From: Nostoc sp. PCC 7107
GTDB taxonomy: Bacteria; Cyanobacteriota; Cyanobacteriia; Cyanobacteriales; Nostocaceae
Direction of reading: 5' to 3'
Assembly (NCBI RefSeq): GCF_000316625.1
Contig: NC_019676.1
Span: 979,001 to 1,043,000, forward strand
Length of the DNA stretch: 64,000 nucleotides
In this document: positions 52,785-60,917 of the stretch, piece after piece
Layout of the letters: every line of letters starts with the position of its first letter
Position numbering within the stretch: position 1 is the first letter of the stretch
The notes under the pieces: generated by a model
Databases searched by the model: none
What the model was told of the DNA's origin: nothing
The model's input: only the letters and a program-made list of their open reading frames with translations
Translations under genes and position numbers: made by a program

Positions 52785-53142
52785 CACATCTCTATTAAAA
52801 AAGCAAGCGTTTAGAAGGAGTATTTCTTTAAAAAATGTCTGTTTATGTAAATTTAATGTATATTTTTCCTTATATACCTCTCACGTATATATAAAAAGCT
52901 ATACTAAACGTAGGTTTTCATACAAAAAATCTTAATAAAAAGCAGACAATATTTTATTCTAAAAAATAAAAATATCGTCTACATTCATAGAAACTGAAAT
53001 AGCGTAGTTACCAACTAGTAATACAATTGTGTGGTAACAGAAATTCTGTAATGACAGATTCTTTTTAGACTTGACAGTTGTGTTATAAGAAAATATTCTC
53101 ACATACTGATAAGTCAAATATATTGTGTGGAGCTTAGATGAG

Positions 53143-54588
53143 ATGAACAGCGCAGCAGATATGCCTCTGCTTCCCGATGATTTCATTACAGGAGTTGCGA
53201 ATAAACATAATGTAACGAAAACTGAGCTAGAGGCATTATTATTAGCACTAAAAGATTATTCTGGTGCAGAAATTGCCGAAAAACTGGCTATTTCTCAAGC
53301 AGCAGTGAGAAAAAGATTAGGGGAAAGTTACCGCAAACTAGGTATAGAAGGCAGCGGTAATAAAAAAATTTATAACTTAAAACAGAAACTATCTGCTCAG
53401 TATCAAGGTATTCAAGAAAATTTTACCGCACCCAAAGAAGATTGGGGTGAAGCAGTTGATGTAGATGGTTTTCGCGGGCGAGAGACAGACATTAAAGATT
53501 TAGAAGAATGGATAGTTGGTAATGATCAGGATTCTGTACGGTGTCGGTTAGTAGCAATTTTAGGTATGGGTGGAATTGGTAAGACTGTGATCGCCGCCAA
53601 AGTTGCCAAAGGAATCCAGCCACAATTTGATTATCTGATTTGGCGATCGCTCCGCAACGCACCACCATTATCAGAAATACTCAACCAACTTTTGCGATTT
53701 TTACCTAATGATGCTGAAGATTATTTAACAGTTAGTGAAAATAACAAAATACTTTTACTGATTGATATTTTGCGAAAACATAGATGCCTGATCATTCTAG
53801 ATAATGTTGAATCAGTGCTACGCAGTGGTAAAGGCAAAACTCAAGAATGGGCTGGCGAATATGAATCTGGGTATGAAAACTATGGCTACTTTTTTAAAAA
53901 AGTAGCGGAAGCATTACATGAAAGTTGTTTATTAATAACTAGTCGAGAAAAACCCAAAGAAGTAGCTGCACTAGAAGGTAAAAATCTTCCAGTGAAAGTT
54001 TTACAGTTATCTAGTCTTAATTTAGAAGAAGCTAGAGAAATTCTGCTGGATAAAGGATGTCAATGTACTGATGAACAATTAGAAGAACTGGTCAAAAGAT
54101 ATTCTGGTAATCCTTTAGCCTTGAAAATAGTTGGTACCACAGTTTATGACTTATTTAGCAATAACATTACAGAATTTTTAAGAGAAATTCAGGGAGAAAA
54201 TGCTGTTTACGGTGATATTCGGTCACTTCTAGATACACAATTTAATCGCTTGTCAGAGCTAGAAAAACAAGTGATGTATCGGTTGGCAATTCATCGGGAA
54301 TATCTTTCTCTGGCACAGCTAAAAAATGATTTAAGAACTACAGAAGTAGAGCCAAAAATACTAGAAGTTATCGAGTCATTATTAAGGCGATCTCTAATTG
54401 AAAAAGAAGCCAAAACCAGCAAGTTTCGGCAGCAATCTGTAGTGATGGAATATGTGAATGAAAGCTACCTCGAAAAGGTAACTCATGAATTTAGCGAAAA
54501 AAAAAACTGGAGTTTGTCCATGCCCACCCTTTGTTACAAGCGCGATCGCTTGATCACATCCGCCAAATACAAGAACGACTTATCTTAG
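53143..54588 (+). CDS. NB-ARC/WD40 STAND protein, N-terminal part (frame ends after A-run)
   Basis: From ATG 53143 the frame encodes an N-terminal helix-turn-helix (KDYSGAEIAEKLAISQAAVR) and an NB-ARC NTPase with Walker A GMGGIGKT at about 141-148, Walker B CLIILDNVES and GNPLALKIVG. A winged-helix-like part follows. At the A-run 54497-54506 the frame is lost and the last 27 codons read unrelated sequence to a stop at 54588. The continuation lies in the -1 frame. STAND NTPases of this type act as signalling switches, and some are defence sensors. Confidence 0.85.
   Translation: MNSAADMPLLPDDFITGVANKHNVTKTELEALLLALKDYSGAEIAEKLAISQAAVRKRLGESYRKLGIEGSGNKKIYNLKQKLSAQYQGIQENFTAPKEDWGEAVDVDGFRGRETDIKDLEEWIVGNDQDSVRCRLVAILGMGGIGKTVIAAKVAKGIQPQFDYLIWRSLRNAPPLSEILNQLLRFLPNDAEDYLTVSENNKILLLIDILRKHRCLIILDNVESVLRSGKGKTQEWAGEYESGYENYGYFFKKVAEALHESCLLITSREKPKEVAALEGKNLPVKVLQLSSLNLEEAREILLDKGCQCTDEQLEELVKRYSGNPLALKIVGTTVYDLFSNNITEFLREIQGENAVYGDIRSLLDTQFNRLSELEKQVMYRLAIHREYLSLAQLKNDLRTTEVEPKILEVIESLLRRSLIEKEAKTSKFRQQSVVMEYVNESYLEKVTHEFSEKKNWSLSMPTLCYKRDRLITSAKYKNDLS
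54497..54506 (+). other. A10 slippery run joining the two parts of the STAND gene
   Basis: Ten consecutive A follow GCG in TTTAGCGAAAA. Upstream the reading frame is E-F-S-E-K-K; one extra A (or a -1 slip) gives K-L-E-F-V-H-A-H-P-L-L-Q, the natural lead into the WD40 half. Options are transcriptional slippage, -1 translational frameshifting, a true frameshift mutation, or a sequencing error. Confidence 0.75.
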
Positions 54589-56768
54589 AACCCGTGAAAC
54601 AAAAGCTGATCAAAGCTTTTGGCACAAAAACAGAACTCGAAGCTTATTTACGACGAATGCTGAGAACTTTACAGCAGGATTCGCCTTCAACTCCAGGTTA
54701 TGCAGCTGGTAACATAATCAATCTACTGCGACAACTCCAAATAGATAAATCCCAGCCAGATTCACACATTGATTTGAGTGGATGTGATTTTTCGGGACTG
54801 ACTATCTGGCAAGCATATCTCAAAGATGCCAATTTACAAGACACCAGCTTTGCCAATGCTGATTTAAAGAGTTCTGTATTCACAGAAACGATGTCTAGTA
54901 TCGTTTCTGTGAGATTTAGTCCTGATGGCAAATTTTTTGCCACAGGTTTAATCACCGGAGAAATTAGATTATGGCGGACTGCTGATACTAAACAAATTCG
55001 CATTTATCAAGGTCATACTGCTTGGGTTTGGGCTTTTGCCTTTAGCCCAGACAGTACAATCCTGGCCAGCGGTAGTGCTGACTACACAATTAAACTCTGG
55101 GACGTGCAAACAGGTGAATGTCTGCAAACCTTCACAAAACATAAAAATAAAGTTTATTCAGTAGCTTTCAGTCCTGATGGTTCTTTATTAGCCAGTGCTG
55201 GGGAAGACAAAACTATAAAAGTTTGGGATATTGCGACAGGGGTTTGTCAGCAGACACTTTCAGAACATGATGGTTGGGTGTGGACTGTGACTTTTCAACC
55301 AACCCCAACCACTAAAAACAATCTTTTACTTGCTAGTGGTAGCGCTGACAGCAAAATTAAGCTGTGGGATATCAATACAGGTAAATGTTTGAAAACTTGG
55401 AATGGTCATAGTCGTGATGTTCATTCAGTAGCTTTCAGTCCTGATGGGCGAACCCTAGCCAGTGGTAGCAGAGACCTCACCCTCAAACTTTGGGATGTAA
55501 ATACAGGTAAATGTCGGCAAACTTGGGAGGGACATAGTAAAAAAATTTATTCGGTACGATTTAGTCCCGATGGGCAAATCTTAGCTAGTTGTGGAGAAGA
55601 TAGAACGATTAAACTCTGGGATATCGCCCAGGGTAAATGCTTGAAGACCTTGCAGGGTCATTATAGTCAAGTGTGGGCGATCGCTTTCAGCCCTGACAGT
55701 CGCACTTTAATCAGTTGTAGTGACGACCAAACAGCCAGACTGTGGGATGTGAATACAGGCAACTGTCTCAATGTATTACAAGGTTATACCCGCGATGTCT
55801 ATTCCGTAGCCTTTAGTCCCAATAGTCAAATTCTAGCGAGTGGACGGGATGACCACAGTATTAACCTGTGGAACTTACAAACATTAGAATGCCATCCTCT
55901 CACAGAACATCAAGGGCGGATTCGTTCTGTCGCCTTTCATCCCAATGGGCAAATCCTCGCCAGCGGTAGTGCTGACAATACAATTAAAATCTGGGATATC
56001 ACAGACATTCGCCATAGCAAATGTACTCAAACCTTGACTGGACACGGTAACTGGGTTTGGACAGTTGCTTTTAGTCCAGATGGGCAAACTCTAGTCAGTA
56101 GTAGCGAAGACCGCAGCATTCGCATCTGGGATATTTCTAGTGGTGAGTGTGTGAGAAAAATCAAAGAACATAGCCATTGGGTGTGGACAGTAGCCTTTCA
56201 TCCTGATGGCAATACTCTGGCAAGTGGTAGCGCTGACAGTCAAATTAAACTTTGGAATGTCGCCAGTGGCGAATGTCTCCAAACCTTCACAGAACATCAA
56301 GACATGATTTGGTCAGTCGCCTTTAGTCCTGATGGGAAACTTTTAGCCAGTGGTAGCGAAGACAAAAGCGTGAAGTTATGGAATCTTCGCACAGGCGAAT
56401 GTATTCACACCTTAACAGGGCATGATCAACAAGTCTACTCAGTGGCATTTAGTCCCAATGGTCAGATTTTAGCTAGTGCTGGCGCTGATACCACTGTGAT
56501 GCTATGGCAAGTAAATACAGGTGAGTTTCTCGAAACCTTGAAATTAGGACATACAGCAGCGATTCGTTCCTTAGCTTTTACTCCCGATGGTAAGTTATTG
56601 GCGAGTGGCGGCGAAGACGAAAAAATTCAACTATGGGATGTGCAGACTTGTCGAAGAGTGCGATCGCTTAAACCAGATCGTCTATATGAACGTATGGATA
56701 TTAGCAATATCACAGGCTTAACTGATGCTGAAAAAGCTTCTTTAAAAATGTTAGGGGCTGTTGATTAA
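54507..56768 (+). CDS. NB-ARC/WD40 STAND protein, C-terminal WD40 part (-1 frame)
   Basis: Reading on in the -1 frame from the A-run gives about 753 residues. A helical region (HIRQIQERLILEPVKQKLI) is followed by a short pentapeptide-like module (DLSGCDFSGLTIWQAYLKDA) and 14 WD40 repeats, enough for two seven-bladed propellers, then a C-terminal ...NITGLTDAEKASLKMLGAV motif common at the end of Nostoc WD40 proteins. Joined to the N-terminal part the protein would be about 1,208 residues. The first Met in this frame (54531) lies inside the expected sequence, so independent translation is less likely. Confidence 0.85.
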   Translation: MEFVHAHPLLQARSLDHIRQIQERLILEPVKQKLIKAFGTKTELEAYLRRMLRTLQQDSPSTPGYAAGNIINLLRQLQIDKSQPDSHIDLSGCDFSGLTIWQAYLKDANLQDTSFANADLKSSVFTETMSSIVSVRFSPDGKFFATGLITGEIRLWRTADTKQIRIYQGHTAWVWAFAFSPDSTILASGSADYTIKLWDVQTGECLQTFTKHKNKVYSVAFSPDGSLLASAGEDKTIKVWDIATGVCQQTLSEHDGWVWTVTFQPTPTTKNNLLLASGSADSKIKLWDINTGKCLKTWNGHSRDVHSVAFSPDGRTLASGSRDLTLKLWDVNTGKCRQTWEGHSKKIYSVRFSPDGQILASCGEDRTIKLWDIAQGKCLKTLQGHYSQVWAIAFSPDSRTLISCSDDQTARLWDVNTGNCLNVLQGYTRDVYSVAFSPNSQILASGRDDHSINLWNLQTLECHPLTEHQGRIRSVAFHPNGQILASGSADNTIKIWDITDIRHSKCTQTLTGHGNWVWTVAFSPDGQTLVSSSEDRSIRIWDISSGECVRKIKEHSHWVWTVAFHPDGNTLASGSADSQIKLWNVASGECLQTFTEHQDMIWSVAFSPDGKLLASGSEDKSVKLWNLRTGECIHTLTGHDQQVYSVAFSPNGQILASAGADTTVMLWQVNTGEFLETLKLGHTAAIRSLAFTPDGKLLASGGEDEKIQLWDVQTCRRVRSLKPDRLYERMDISNITGLTDAEKASLKMLGAVD

Positions 56769-56984
56769 AGTTCTCAACTTTCCGGTAGTAGGCTGATCAA
56801 AAATGAATACATTAATGATGAAAATTTGTATCTTAAATCATTCTGAAGAGATATGAATGCAAGCACATCATTTTGTTTTCCTGTTCATTTATAAGGATGA
56901 TTGGTATTTTTATTTTAAAAAATACCAATTATCTGCCAGGGCATCACACCATCAAAAAATATTAATCTTAGGTGTGTAATCGTC

Positions 56985-58634
56985 GTGTTATTATCTCAAA
57001 CTAAAAGTAAACAAACATCCACTCAGATTAATTCCATAAAAATTGTTTTAATTGGAGAATTTCTGAAACACAGAAGCTTTAATGGTGCAAATAAAGCCTT
57101 GCCAGTTTTAGCTTCTAGTTTATTTAATGCTGGGTTTAGGCAAGTTTTACAACTAGATTTGGAACGTCTGGATTTGAGTATTGATGATGTTTTAAAGGAA
57201 ATTAGAGATGCGGATTTAATTATCTTTGCTGGTTGTCTCACAACTCAATGGCCAGAAATTGACAATCACAGTAGCAAAATTTTTTCCCAACTTCAAAAAT
57301 ATGGCAGAAAAAATGTACCAATTTTAGTTGGTGGTTATGCAACTAAAAGCGTTGAAGATATTGCCCGCATTACACCGTGGATTACAGCTTTTTGTGATGG
57401 TGAAGGCGAAGAATCAATTATAGAAATTGCTCATGCCGTTGCTAGAGGAACTTTCTATGAAGAGATGCAACATTTGCCTGGGTTGTGTTTTATCACTGAT
57501 GATGGGAAATTTCATCGGACTATTGCAACCAGAGTTAATAACTTTGATGATATTGACCAAAACTTGGGTTTAGTTCATGTACCAAAAGTACATGATATGG
57601 ATATTTTTAAAACTTCAGATGGTAGACAATTAAAAACCGCCCAAATATTTACTCAACGAGGCTGTCCTTGGGGATGTGGTTTTTGTAATAAAAGTAGTGA
57701 AAGTAATAGTGTTATTAGGTTAAGTGAAGCATCTTTTCGCAGACAATTACAACAACTAAAAAAACATGGTTATGAAGCAATTTATTTAGATGTTGATACT
57801 TTTACTGTGCATGAGCAAGCAGCCAAACGTGAAGCCGAAATTCTTAAAGAAGAAGGATTTATTTGGGGTTCTAATACACGCATCGATAAAATTAACTATG
57901 AACAGATGCGTTATTTAGTAGAACATAATTGTGTATATCTGTTTTTTGGGGTTGAGCATACCTTACCAGAAGTTTCATTAGCTAACCACAAATTTAACGG
58001 TTCTTTTGCTAGTCAAATTAAGCAAGCATTTGATTATCCAGCTAAGATTGCCAGAGTTTTTCAAGATATGAATCAAGCTGGATTACCCAGTAGTTATTTT
58101 TTGATTTTAGGCTTACCAAAAGCCAAACTCAATGCTGATAAAACAGAGATTATCAGTTACGAACCGACAACTTTTGCTGATGATATCCAAGCAATTCACT
58201 TTGGGATTGAAAAGTGTAACCCAGATTTTTTAAATTTCAATGTGCTGCGATTTATGCCTGGGAGTATGGCTGCTGATACAGTTGGTGATTTCAGCTACAC
58301 TTGTGTGCGCCCATCAGGAAAACAGCCAATTACTGCTGGATACTTTTTACCACGAGCCGTCAATTATTATGGCTATCCTCAGTTTCAAGAACATGGTGTG
58401 TATCGATTGTGTGAATCGGTGAGTAGATATCAACCGATTACAACAGCGATGAATCCCCAACGGGTTTACGATACCATCTGCTACGCCATACGGTTGATTA
58501 ATGCCAAGATTGATGCAGGTGGTAAAGCGACAAAATTGTTTATTGATCGAGATTTAATAGCTTTAGGTTTAGTCAGTCAAGATGTACAGGGAAAATATGC
58601 GATCGCACCTTTAGAAGACTTTGCCAAAATTTGA
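56985..58634 (+). CDS. radical SAM protein with B12-binding-like N-terminal domain
   Basis: This 549-residue protein starts at a GTG. The N-terminal domain (about 15-155) has the Rossmann-like layout of B12-binding domains (VLIGEF..., DLIIFAGC, VPILVGGYATKS) but no DxHxxG cobalt-ligating motif. The radical SAM domain has Cys227, 231 and 234 (RGCPWGCGFCNKSSE). A C-terminal region of about 130 residues follows. The substrate is unknown, and no obvious partner is adjacent. I cannot place it in a named subfamily. Confidence 0.82.
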   Translation: MLLSQTKSKQTSTQINSIKIVLIGEFLKHRSFNGANKALPVLASSLFNAGFRQVLQLDLERLDLSIDDVLKEIRDADLIIFAGCLTTQWPEIDNHSSKIFSQLQKYGRKNVPILVGGYATKSVEDIARITPWITAFCDGEGEESIIEIAHAVARGTFYEEMQHLPGLCFITDDGKFHRTIATRVNNFDDIDQNLGLVHVPKVHDMDIFKTSDGRQLKTAQIFTQRGCPWGCGFCNKSSESNSVIRLSEASFRRQLQQLKKHGYEAIYLDVDTFTVHEQAAKREAEILKEEGFIWGSNTRIDKINYEQMRYLVEHNCVYLFFGVEHTLPEVSLANHKFNGSFASQIKQAFDYPAKIARVFQDMNQAGLPSSYFLILGLPKAKLNADKTEIISYEPTTFADDIQAIHFGIEKCNPDFLNFNVLRFMPGSMAADTVGDFSYTCVRPSGKQPITAGYFLPRAVNYYGYPQFQEHGVYRLCESVSRYQPITTAMNPQRVYDTICYAIRLINAKIDAGGKATKLFIDRDLIALGLVSQDVQGKYAIAPLEDFAKI

Positions 58635-58651
58635 ATTTTAGCGCATTTCGA

Positions 58652-58684
58652 CTTCTCCCCAAGGGAGACGCTACGCGAACGCTC
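58652..58684. repeat. dispersed repeat GGGAGACGCTACGCGAACG
   Basis: CCCCAAGGGAGACGCTACGC at 58657-58676 plus GAACGCT matches a motif I recognise as highly repeated in Nostoc-type genomes. It follows the radical SAM gene and precedes the IS630 insertion. No second copy is in this window. Confidence 0.5.
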
Positions 58685-58704
58685 AATGCTCAATAGATAC
58701 GTAG

Positions 58705-58719
58705 GGTGTGTTACGGCTA
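58705..58719. repeat. left arm of a palindromic repeat split by the IS630 element
   Basis: GGTGTGTTACGGCTA matches, with one mismatch, the reverse complement of TAGCCGTAACGCACC at 59904-59918 on the far side of the insertion sequence. Removing the element brings the arms together as one hairpin. Confidence 0.65.
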
Positions 58720-58786
58720 TACAAGGATTTGAGAACTTATACCAATTCAAAAAATGTTTGCGACAGATAAGGCATTGAGGATGAAG

Positions 58787-59323
58787 TCATAACCAGTCAA
58801 AGAAGCAGCAATTTGAGGAGTGAGGAGAGCTAGGAGTTGAGCAACCTTGGTTTGCAGATGCTCGCCTGTTATCAAATAGCTCCCATTTCAAGTCTTGCTT
58901 GAGATATTCCCAAACGCGCTCTATGGGATTGAGTTCAGGAGAATGAGCAGGCTGGAACAAAAGAACAATATTCTCTGGAATTTGTAAACGTTTAGCTTGA
59001 TGAAATAAGCCGTTATCAACTTGGAGAATGTTAAGTGATTTGGGATAACAGGCAGCGAACTCGTTCAAAAATTGTTGGTAGCATTCGGTATCAACATGAG
59101 AAAACTGCCAAAATAAACTTTCCCCAGTAAGTGGTTCAACTGCTCCATATAGCCAGAACGCTTTAAATTGCCACTGCCAATCACCAATAGGCTTAACTCC
59201 GGGAAGAGTAATTTTACGTCCTTCAATGGTTTTGAGTCCAAATCGACTCTCATCTTGTACAAAATAACGAATATTTTCGTACTGAGGCAAGATAATGGCA
59301 CTGTATTGAGCAATTAATTGCAA
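58787..59323 (-). CDS. IS630 transposase, C-terminal DDE part
   Basis: The frame encodes a DDE domain with all three acidic residues: YFVQDESRFG, LQVDNGLFHQ and NPIERVWEYLK. It is reached from the upstream frame by one extra A in the run at 59336-59343, reading on as LGDDLQLIAQY. Joined product about 345 residues. All catalytic residues are present, so the element may be functional if slippage occurs. Confidence 0.85.
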   Translation of the reverse strand: MQLIAQYSAIILPQYENIRYFVQDESRFGLKTIEGRKITLPGVKPIGDWQWQFKAFWLYGAVEPLTGESLFWQFSHVDTECYQQFLNEFAACYPKSLNILQVDNGLFHQAKRLQIPENIVLLFQPAHSPELNPIERVWEYLKQDLKWELFDNRRASANQGCSTPSSPHSSNCCFFDWL

Positions 59324-59823
59324 GTCATCACCGAGTTTTTTTTAAAAGACTCTAGTTTTTCTTCGTCCTGTTTTCGGTTACGCGGACGTGGGACTTTCAG
59401 CTTGGCTTTGAGCCTGTAACGTGCCAGATGATGTACAGTTGCGTACTCAGCTTGCACACCCAAGGTTTTTTCTAACCAATGTTGTATTTGTGTGTACCGT
59501 TGAAACCCACCTTCTGGTTGTTCGAGTTGTTTTTTCAAACTCGATACAGCCCAATCTGGTATTGCTCTTTTTCGACCTGAACTCGTTCCAAATTCAACAA
59601 CCGCCTCAATTCCTCCTTCTCGATAATCTGCCAACCATCGATGTACTGTAGCTCGATGTTTTCCCAAGATTTTAGCAATCTCACTTACACTCATTTCTTG
59701 CCCTTTAATCAGATATAGGGCTTGTATACGTTCTTTGCTCCGAGACTGTTTTTGATGTTTGAGCAACTTCTCTAGTTCCTCGACACTTTCTTCTATCTCG
59801 ATTTGTGTTACCCCTACCATCAC
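59314..59823 (-). CDS. IS630 transposase, N-terminal helix-turn-helix part
   Basis: The 169-codon frame encodes two helix-turn-helix segments (MSVSEIAKILGKHRATVHRW and WAVSSLKKQLEQPEGGFQRY) and a basic linker. It ends EEKLESFKKNSVMTCN at an A8 run; the last residues after KK are off-frame. The overlap with the DDE frame is a few bases, the usual geometry of programmed -1 frameshifting in IS630 elements. Confidence 0.85.
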   Translation of the reverse strand: MMVGVTQIEIEESVEELEKLLKHQKQSRSKERIQALYLIKGQEMSVSEIAKILGKHRATVHRWLADYREGGIEAVVEFGTSSGRKRAIPDWAVSSLKKQLEQPEGGFQRYTQIQHWLEKTLGVQAEYATVHHLARYRLKAKLKVPRPRNRKQDEEKLESFKKNSVMTCN

Positions 59824-59904
59824 ATACCCTGAATGCTACTTCTGTCTATTTTTACCATTTGTCGCATTCTTTTTTCAAATTGGTATTAGGAAAGTGAATT
59901 AATT

Positions 59905-59941
59905 AGCCGTAACGCACCATATTTCTCAGTGCGTTACGGCT
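59905..59941. repeat. perfect hairpin with GTGCGTTACGGCT arms
   Basis: AGCCGTAACGCAC (59905-59917) pairs perfectly with GTGCGTTACGGCT (59929-59941) around an 11-base loop. It lies between the two IS elements and is also the right-hand arm of the repeat interrupted by copy A. Confidence 0.75.
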
Positions 59942-60039
59942 TACGCTTAACACATGCGAAGAATTTATTTATATAGCTGTAGCCAATAAGATTAGGACAT
60001 AAACTATGAAGTATTCCTAGTATTGCGATTCAAACTCAG

Positions 60040-60426
60040 ATGGCTAAACCCTATAGTGATGATTTCCGGCAAAAGGTGATGCAAGCAATTGAGTTGGACG
60101 GTCTCAAAAAGAGTGAGGCGAGCCAATTGTTCAATATCAGTCGCAATACGATTAACTTGTGGTGTCAAAGAAAAGCCCAAACGGGTGATATCAAGGTCAA
60201 ATCGAGGCAGGAATGCCAAAGGGGTGGCAAAATCGATGATTGGGAGAAGTTTCGCGCATTTGTCAAAGCAAATGGTGATAAAACTCAAGTCCAAATGGTA
60301 GAGTTATGGGAAGGAGAGATTAGTCAACGCACGATTTCACGGGCATTGCAGAAAATTGGACACACCCGTAAAAAAAAACATATGGCTACTGTCAACGAGA
60401 TGAAGCCAAACGAGCAACCTTTCTAG
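60040..60426 (+). CDS. IS630 transposase (copy B), N-terminal part
   Basis: The 128-codon frame has a helix-turn-helix (FRQKVMQAIELDGLKKSEAS, QLFNISRNTINLWCQRK) and a second DNA-binding segment (VQMVELWEGEISQRTISRAL). After HTRKKK at the A9 run 60370-60378 the frame reads HMATVNEMKPNEQPF to a stop. One extra A leads into T-Y-G-Y-C-Q-R-D and the DDE half. Confidence 0.85.
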   Translation: MAKPYSDDFRQKVMQAIELDGLKKSEASQLFNISRNTINLWCQRKAQTGDIKVKSRQECQRGGKIDDWEKFRAFVKANGDKTQVQMVELWEGEISQRTISRALQKIGHTRKKKHMATVNEMKPNEQPF

Positions 60427-60917
60427 CACAACTGAAGAACCCAAAAGCACCACACTTGGTTTATGTCGATGAATCGGGAATGGATGAACGAGATAACTAC
60501 GGCTATGGGTACTCACCAACAGGGGAACGATTTTACGACCTCAAATCCGGTCGGCGACAGGGACGCATTAACATGATTGCTGGGTATCGGGATAATCAAT
60601 TGATTGCCCCATTTACAGTCGAGGGGGCGTGTAACCGCACAGTGTTTGAAACCTGGCTAGAAACATGTTTGATTCCGGTTTTGCGTCCCGGTGAGTGGGT
60701 AATTGTGGATAATGCGACGTTTCATCATGGTGGTCGAATTGCCCAACTCATACATGATGCAGGCTGTGAACTTGTTTATTTACCTCCCTATTCACCAGAC
60801 CTTAATCGTATTGAGAAGTGTTGGGCATGGTTAAAAAGTAGGATTCGCAAACAATTACACAATTGTGATCATTTACGTGATGCTATCGAATTCGTTCTCA
60901 AGCACGCAGCGTCCTAA
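60379..60917 (+). CDS. IS630 transposase (copy B), C-terminal DDE part
   Basis: In the frame reached after the A9 run the product continues about 178 residues with the DDE residues in YVDESGMDER, VIVDNATFHH and NRIEKCWAWLK, close to ISY100-like transposases. The first Met in this frame is at 60456, mid-domain. The full joined protein is about 292 residues. Confidence 0.85.

Follow-up and report, generated by a model that had tools for sequence, protein, structure and literature searches.

How does a cyanobacterium express a gene whose reading frame breaks at a run of ten adenines? The question is raised by a STAND NTPase gene in a 64,000-nucleotide stretch of Nostoc sp. PCC 7107 DNA (NC_019676.1, positions 979,001 to 1,043,000; hereafter the window), part of a genome assembled as one contig of 6.33 Mb. 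Up to the A10 run the gene encodes a helix-turn-helix (HTH)-like N-terminal region and an NB-ARC domain, and beyond it, in the −1 frame, WD40 repeats (Table 1). The first-pass annotation, made from the letters of the window, had pointed out that this gene and two nearby IS630-type insertion sequences (IS A and IS B) each lose frame at a run of A, and it placed all three breaks correctly, at the points from which homology continues in the −1 frame. We put at roughly 0.7 the probability that the STAND gene is functional and is decoded through slippage at its conserved A10 run, with transcriptional slippage as the preferred form.

In the proposed mechanism, zero-frame decoding would yield a truncated HTH-NB-ARC protein ending 9 to 27 residues past the run, and RNA polymerase, by slipping on A10, would add one A to some transcripts, from which the full-length HTH-NB-ARC-WD40 receptor would be made; the run would determine the ratio in which the cell holds sensor-less and sensor-bearing forms. 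That slippage occurs, that the polymerase is what slips and that the short form is of use are inferences. By analogy with other STAND proteins, loss of the sensor would either release the switch or create a dominant partner. Transcriptional insertions in A/T runs of E. coli and Buchnera mostly add a single nucleotide and become exponentially more frequent as runs lengthen (PMC5574713, excerpt), so a run that is one A short of frame fits transcriptional slippage. Selection against slippage is visible in a large share of genomes from nine A/T onward (PMC1088944, excerpt), a length that the A10 of the STAND gene exceeds.

The break is shared among relatives. A first look at 100 relatives found the A10 split of the window in five of ten same-genus genomes, and further cases came from a scan of named genomes. 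When 217 genomes of the family were searched with the hinge itself as query (E <= 1e-20), 26 matched, a count that varies with the cut-off; 7 further, more distant genomes matched only in the first look. Exactly G-A10 with the identical single frame break was present in 13 of the 26 genomes (the window's own included), which span six genera and include Nostoc sp. LEGE 06077, N. paludosum FACHB-159, N. spongiaeforme FACHB-130 and Dolichospermum sp. LEGE 00240; in all 13 a G stands before the run and a C or T after it. The 13 are not fully independent, as two of the loci (L060 and L147) are 98% alike. Each split gene has one frame break, at the run, across ~3.65 kb: in ten loci an upstream frame of 473–492 codons and a downstream frame of 755–759 codons are otherwise unbroken, and in the three found later (L145–L147) a single open frame reaches the run and is followed by one of 752–754 codons. 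An A/T run of about nine or more, here A10, therefore stands at the frame junction in 13/13 split orthologues, and run length and both frames, the conservation of which serves as a sign of slippage (PMC1088944, excerpt), are kept among homologues, although two of the 15 members of the clade described below lack the split.

Both halves of the split genes are under purifying selection, with mean dN/dS values of 0.158 upstream and 0.148 downstream of the run (78 pairs, mean dS ~0.66; tree length 3.4 at four-fold sites). The first 50 codons past the run are likewise constrained (dN/dS 0.19, 77 pairs), and an ATG, GTG or TTG at any one position within them is common to at most 6/13 loci. Constrained codons lacking a widely shared start imply a fusion product, and the constraint ahead of codon 51 is best explained by translation of the second half as part of such a fusion.

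In the remaining 13 hinge-matching genomes the protein reads in one frame: with A8 in one (G103), with A10 in three (G045, G248 and G167), with A9 in two (G254 and G244) and with no run in seven, among them a copy on a Sphaerospermopsis conjugative plasmid. None of the 7 first-look-only genomes has a run, so that a hinge run of A8 or longer is found in 19/26 genomes, or in 19/33 with these distant matches added. The first-pass annotation had named run-less orthologues reading in one frame, if coupled with a lack of slipped transcripts, as an outcome that would tell against its interpretation; such orthologues do exist among distant genomes (7/26 and the 7 more), so that slippage would be derived, within one clade, and is not required by the protein. 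The A10 orthologue in G045 (L104/L085) comes from another genus, and is read in one frame despite its run.

Trees were built for each half from 26 of 29 rows, after L088 and L093 (in one frame without a run; motif unmatched) and L094 (match incomplete) had been dropped. In both, the 13 split genes fall within a clade of 15 with support of 100/100. The A8 gene of G103 is the sister of the Dolichospermum pair in both half-trees; the plasmid copy lies inside the clade, its position open in one half-tree and next to the G103/Dolichospermum group in the other. The split label needs three changes on the tree, e.g. one gain and two losses, and under that history two lineages would have regained one frame, in which case the full-length protein would matter most. 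The full-length protein is probably ancestral, since the complete outer orthologues examined read in one frame. More tentatively, the hinge may be an evolved ratio device in which poly(A) is kept in either phase across many lineages, every cell would make both receptor forms and phase flips between lineages would swap the majority form, an idea that we consider possible rather than probable. The in-frame A8 version (L103/L148, G103) inside the clade of split genes offers a natural control for comparisons of expression.

Runs of this length are rare in the genome, and with a split that recurs at exactly A10 in 13 genomes the STAND break goes beyond chance. Only six A10 runs occur genome-wide, both strands together: the STAND one, four that are in frame inside longer open frames (IS-like genes in two cases) and one outside any 60-codon frame. 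When 36 of 60 long A-runs were classified (30/54 A9 and 6/6 A10), the STAND gene was the only clear non-IS split, the pattern being found also at four copies of IS B. Among 26 orthologues (95 kb; a set that partly differs from the 26 hinge-matching genomes and leaves out the run-less L088 and L093 and the incompletely matched L094), all 18 A/T runs of nine or more are at the hinge; with the threshold lowered to eight, 19 genes have theirs at the hinge and 6 runs, all of length 8, lie elsewhere. Fully invariant 11-base windows number 12/3766 in the codon alignment, where a gap in two rows masks part of the run.

Several observations weigh against this account. Taken by itself, the conservation of the A's carries little weight, because an in-frame A7 at 53362–53368 (HTH-like region, Asn-Lys-Lys-Ile) is kept in 13/13 split orthologues and AAA is used throughout in 19/34 invariant Lys columns; other A7 runs are less kept (that at 55539 in 6/13, that at 57758 in 3/13), and it is the preserved frame break, not the conserved A's, that we take to be decisive. 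The other two members of the clade of 15, G103 and the plasmid copy, read in one frame. The zero-frame tail after the run varies in length and sequence among the 13 split loci (9 residues in nine, 25–27 in four), and so the short product's own end bears no sign of selection. Start-type codons are common further into the second half, at codon 51 in 11/13 loci (7 ATG, 4 TTG), at 129 in 11/13 (ATG) and at 135 in 12/13 (GTG), which makes additional internal initiation possible. A runs reportedly make the RNA polymerase of E. coli slip less readily than T runs do (PMC6260861, excerpt), and the literature searched yielded no slippage measurement for any cyanobacterial RNA polymerase. The zero frame also places an X_XXY_YYZ heptamer at the run in 13/13 split loci, A_AAA_AAC or, in N. 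paludosum and NMS9, A_AAA_AAT, and a proven IS case uses A_AAA_AAC with no established stimulator (PMC4066793, excerpt).

The heptamer is what programmed −1 ribosomal frameshifting at A_AAA_AAC/U would use to make the full-length protein. Such sites commonly, though not always, have a stimulatory structure downstream. Folding energy downstream of the run is, however, no better than that of shuffled sequences (z −0.9 to +0.9 in all seven loci folded of the 13), and the consensus fold of a DNA alignment of ten of the 13 split loci, in which the L084 row is offset and overlaps only in part, reaches −2.2 kcal/mol, with no stable or covarying RNA structure, pseudoknot or stem. Upstream of the run, no Shine-Dalgarno-like conserved stretch was apparent by eye. 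A seven-base site would not require A10, yet A10 is present in 13/13; moreover, non-purine A-site codons are disfavoured, bacteria tolerating such an A-site shift less (PMC4066793, excerpt). Ribosomal frameshifting is on these grounds doubtful, and transcriptional slippage is preferred well ahead of it.

Gene fission, in which the two parts would be translated separately and the WD40 part from its own start, agrees with the purifying selection on both halves and could draw on the common start-type codons at 51, 129 and 135. It leaves unexplained the constraint on the 50 codons ahead of those starts; no start codon is common to all 13 split loci, none of them (0/13) has an AGGA, GGAG or GAGG within 15 bases upstream of codon 51, and fission would not call for a long A-run, all of which makes it unlikely. 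Phase variation, whereby slippage in DNA replication would toggle the run between in-frame and out-of-frame lengths within a population, is suggested by the likely hypermutability of homopolymers this long (PMC1088944, excerpt) and by the clade member that is in frame with A8 (L103/L148). A switching locus should, though, be met in both states, and all 13 split assemblies, one per species, have A10 and none A9 or A11; we regard phase variation as unlikely too. Although poly-A is error-prone in sequencing, a mistake in assembly or base calling is very unlikely, as is pseudogene decay, because the A10 split is conserved with identical run length in 13 separate genome assemblies that fall in a well-supported clade, and both halves are selected (dN/dS ~0.15 over the tree length of 3.4), with no further stop or frameshift in any of the 13 genes; the comparison of orthologues that the first-pass annotation had proposed thus speaks for a genuine break.

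Slippage at the A10 run, as we prefer to read the locus, has precedents. In Citrobacter rodentium tssM1, a poly(A) run (A11) just before a stop likewise splits a functional gene, which gives short and full-length proteins; slippage there is ~20–25%, both proteins were measured, both forms are needed, and the short form is 3–4 times more abundant (PMC4256274, excerpt). Slippage, proteins and need were all measured for tssM1; the Nostoc case is predicted from sequence, and a STAND protein with a run conserved over many species is the feature that sets it apart. Slippage in Yersinia pseudotuberculosis tssM3 yields a shorter protein (PMC4256274, excerpt), as would be expected for the in-frame A9/A10 STAND orthologues, so that both phases exist in that system as they do in the STAND family. 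Thermus dnaX and the Shigella mxiE and spa genes are cellular genes with slippery runs and two products (PMC1088944, PMC5009743 and PMC4256274, excerpts); they encode other proteins, and the A9 templated in dnaX keeps the frame, so that slippage there yields the shorter product. Buchnera and Blochmannia carry frame-broken poly(A) genes with 12–50% corrected transcripts (PMC5009743, excerpt), in AT-rich reduced genomes as opposed to a 6.33-Mb genome with six A10 runs.

Slippage decoding and the IS630 part of the observation are therefore already known, and the STAND gene is the finding. The open-licence literature searched, outside which most subscription journals lie, yielded no conserved case of slippage in a STAND/NLR-like gene from free-living cyanobacteria, and the main text of the GeneTack survey (PMC3711429) mentions neither Nostoc nor Anabaena, WD-40 or NB-ARC. 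Should our reading be right, a bacterial NLR-like receptor would tune the ratio of its sensor-less to full-length forms by polymerase slippage under selection in many free-living species, cyanobacteria would offer a conserved case of slippage decoding in a cellular gene (outside IS elements and endosymbionts), and the role of sensor-less STAND proteins would become directly testable. Split genes of this kind may also be entered in annotations as pseudogenes or as pairs of genes.

The domain content of the two halves identifies the protein. NB-ARC is matched in the first half (Pfam, E 9.6e-19, 68.1 bits against a cut-off of 23.5), with GMGGIGKT as its P-loop in the alignment, and WD40 in 13 stretches of the second; an NB-ARC with a P-loop and a C-terminal repeat domain, as expected of a STAND NTPase, are thus both present, and a sensor role is predicted for the repeats. 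At the N-terminus the HTH-type models Sigma70_r4_2 and GerE score slightly under their Pfam cut-offs, and an alternative GTG start is possible at 53125. Sequence matches of the zero-frame half in the PDB are plant NLRs (MLA13, RPP13-like 4 and Sr35/CNL9) and AfsR, and the closest named relatives of the gene belong to Nostoc. The N-terminal region differs from that of Apaf-1, which is a CARD, and a frame break between the NB-ARC region and the WD40 part is a feature of the Nostoc gene and not of Apaf-1. A central NB-ARC and C-terminal WD40 repeats are common to both (Apaf-1 domain order from PMC7159879, excerpt). The NB-ARC half matched no PADLOC defence model and the WD40 half matched one (HEAT-ARM_XIII, E 1.3e-54, five stretches), which we take for repeat similarity and not for membership of a known anti-phage STAND family. 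For the intact orthologue on the plasmid, the AlphaFold model of the hinge was poor (mean pLDDT 53.6) and was not used.

Table 1. Features at the STAND locus and its 3′ side, in window coordinates (ORF, open reading frame; SAM, S-adenosylmethionine)
Feature	Position	Strand	Basis
STAND gene, zero-frame part: HTH-like N-terminus, NB-ARC, short non-conserved tail past the A-run, stop	53143..54588	+	ORF list
STAND gene, putative slippery A10 run, zero frame GAA AAA AAA AAC	54497..54506	+	
STAND gene, −1 frame part: linker, pentapeptide-like stretch (by eye), WD40 repeats	54507..56768	+	ORF list, Pfam
B12-binding radical SAM gene, next gene 3′ of the STAND gene	56985..58634	+	NCBIfam
IS A (IS630 type) orfB, DDE_3	58787..59323	−	ORF list, Pfam
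IS A (IS630 type) orfA, HTH	59314..59823	−	ORF list, Pfam
IS A, A8 run (T8 on the forward strand)	59336..59343	−	
IS B (IS630 type) orfA, HTH_Tnp_IS630	60040..60426	+	ORF list, Pfam
IS B, A9 run	60370..60378	+	
IS B (IS630 type) orfB, DDE_3; frame open backwards into the run	60456..60917	+	ORF list, Pfam

The radical SAM gene has NCBIfam matches to BchE and other B12/radical SAM models, all below cut-off. It is the next gene downstream, on the same strand, in 13/13 split loci, and both in-frame clade members and 7/14 other loci likewise have it 3′ of the STAND gene; this conserved neighbour supports the orthology of the STAND loci and hints that the two genes are likely a functional pair. The pairing is seen on the conjugative Sphaerospermopsis plasmid as well (L059).

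IS A and IS B each comprise an HTH orfA and a DDE_3 orfB overlapping in the −1 frame, as is characteristic of IS630 elements, which have terminal inverted repeats and a TA target. All nine genomic copies of IS A have A8 and are identical across the 281 bases compared; the seven of IS B divide into five with A9 and two with A8, so that one extra A, which the first-pass annotation had given as the common remedy, restores the frame in the three window genes but not in every IS B copy. Of the two copies of an element related at 77%, one has A10 and stays in frame at the run, and the other has A8. Among the IS A relatives in the family, 18 of 19 are readable at the run (14 A7, 3 A8 from one genome, 1 interrupted), and most retain the −1 overlap.

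IS630 frameshifting, to which the first-pass annotation had appealed, is established biology (PMC5009743, excerpt), and the best explanation is that the two elements use their family's known programmed shift independently of the STAND gene. The proposal that the latter shares the IS630 mechanism is accordingly borne out only in part: its break is real and conserved, but one shared mechanism is not needed, because 14/18 IS A relatives have A7 and 13/13 split STAND genes A10. An IS insertion was rejected as the cause of the STAND break, as the other 12 split loci (8–11 kb each) are free of IS A and IS B save for a 34-base IS A match in L056, and so was a shared cause arising from the proximity of the three runs, the genome having nine copies of IS A and seven of IS B; the proximity of the runs looks like coincidence. 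Nostoc PCC 7120 has IS elements identical save for a poly(A) of 8 to 10, for which transcriptional slippage was proposed (Baranov et al., 2005; PMC1088944, excerpt). With 8–10 A at the orfA/orfB junction and copies that differ in run length these resemble IS B; the passages in question leave the IS family unnamed, and identity with IS B is our supposition. They differ from the STAND gene, which lies outside any IS, in being mobile. In a third IS630-like element the run length apparently differs between copies as well (A9 in L134, A10 in L051), and the A10 copy is in frame through the run and meets a stop further on.

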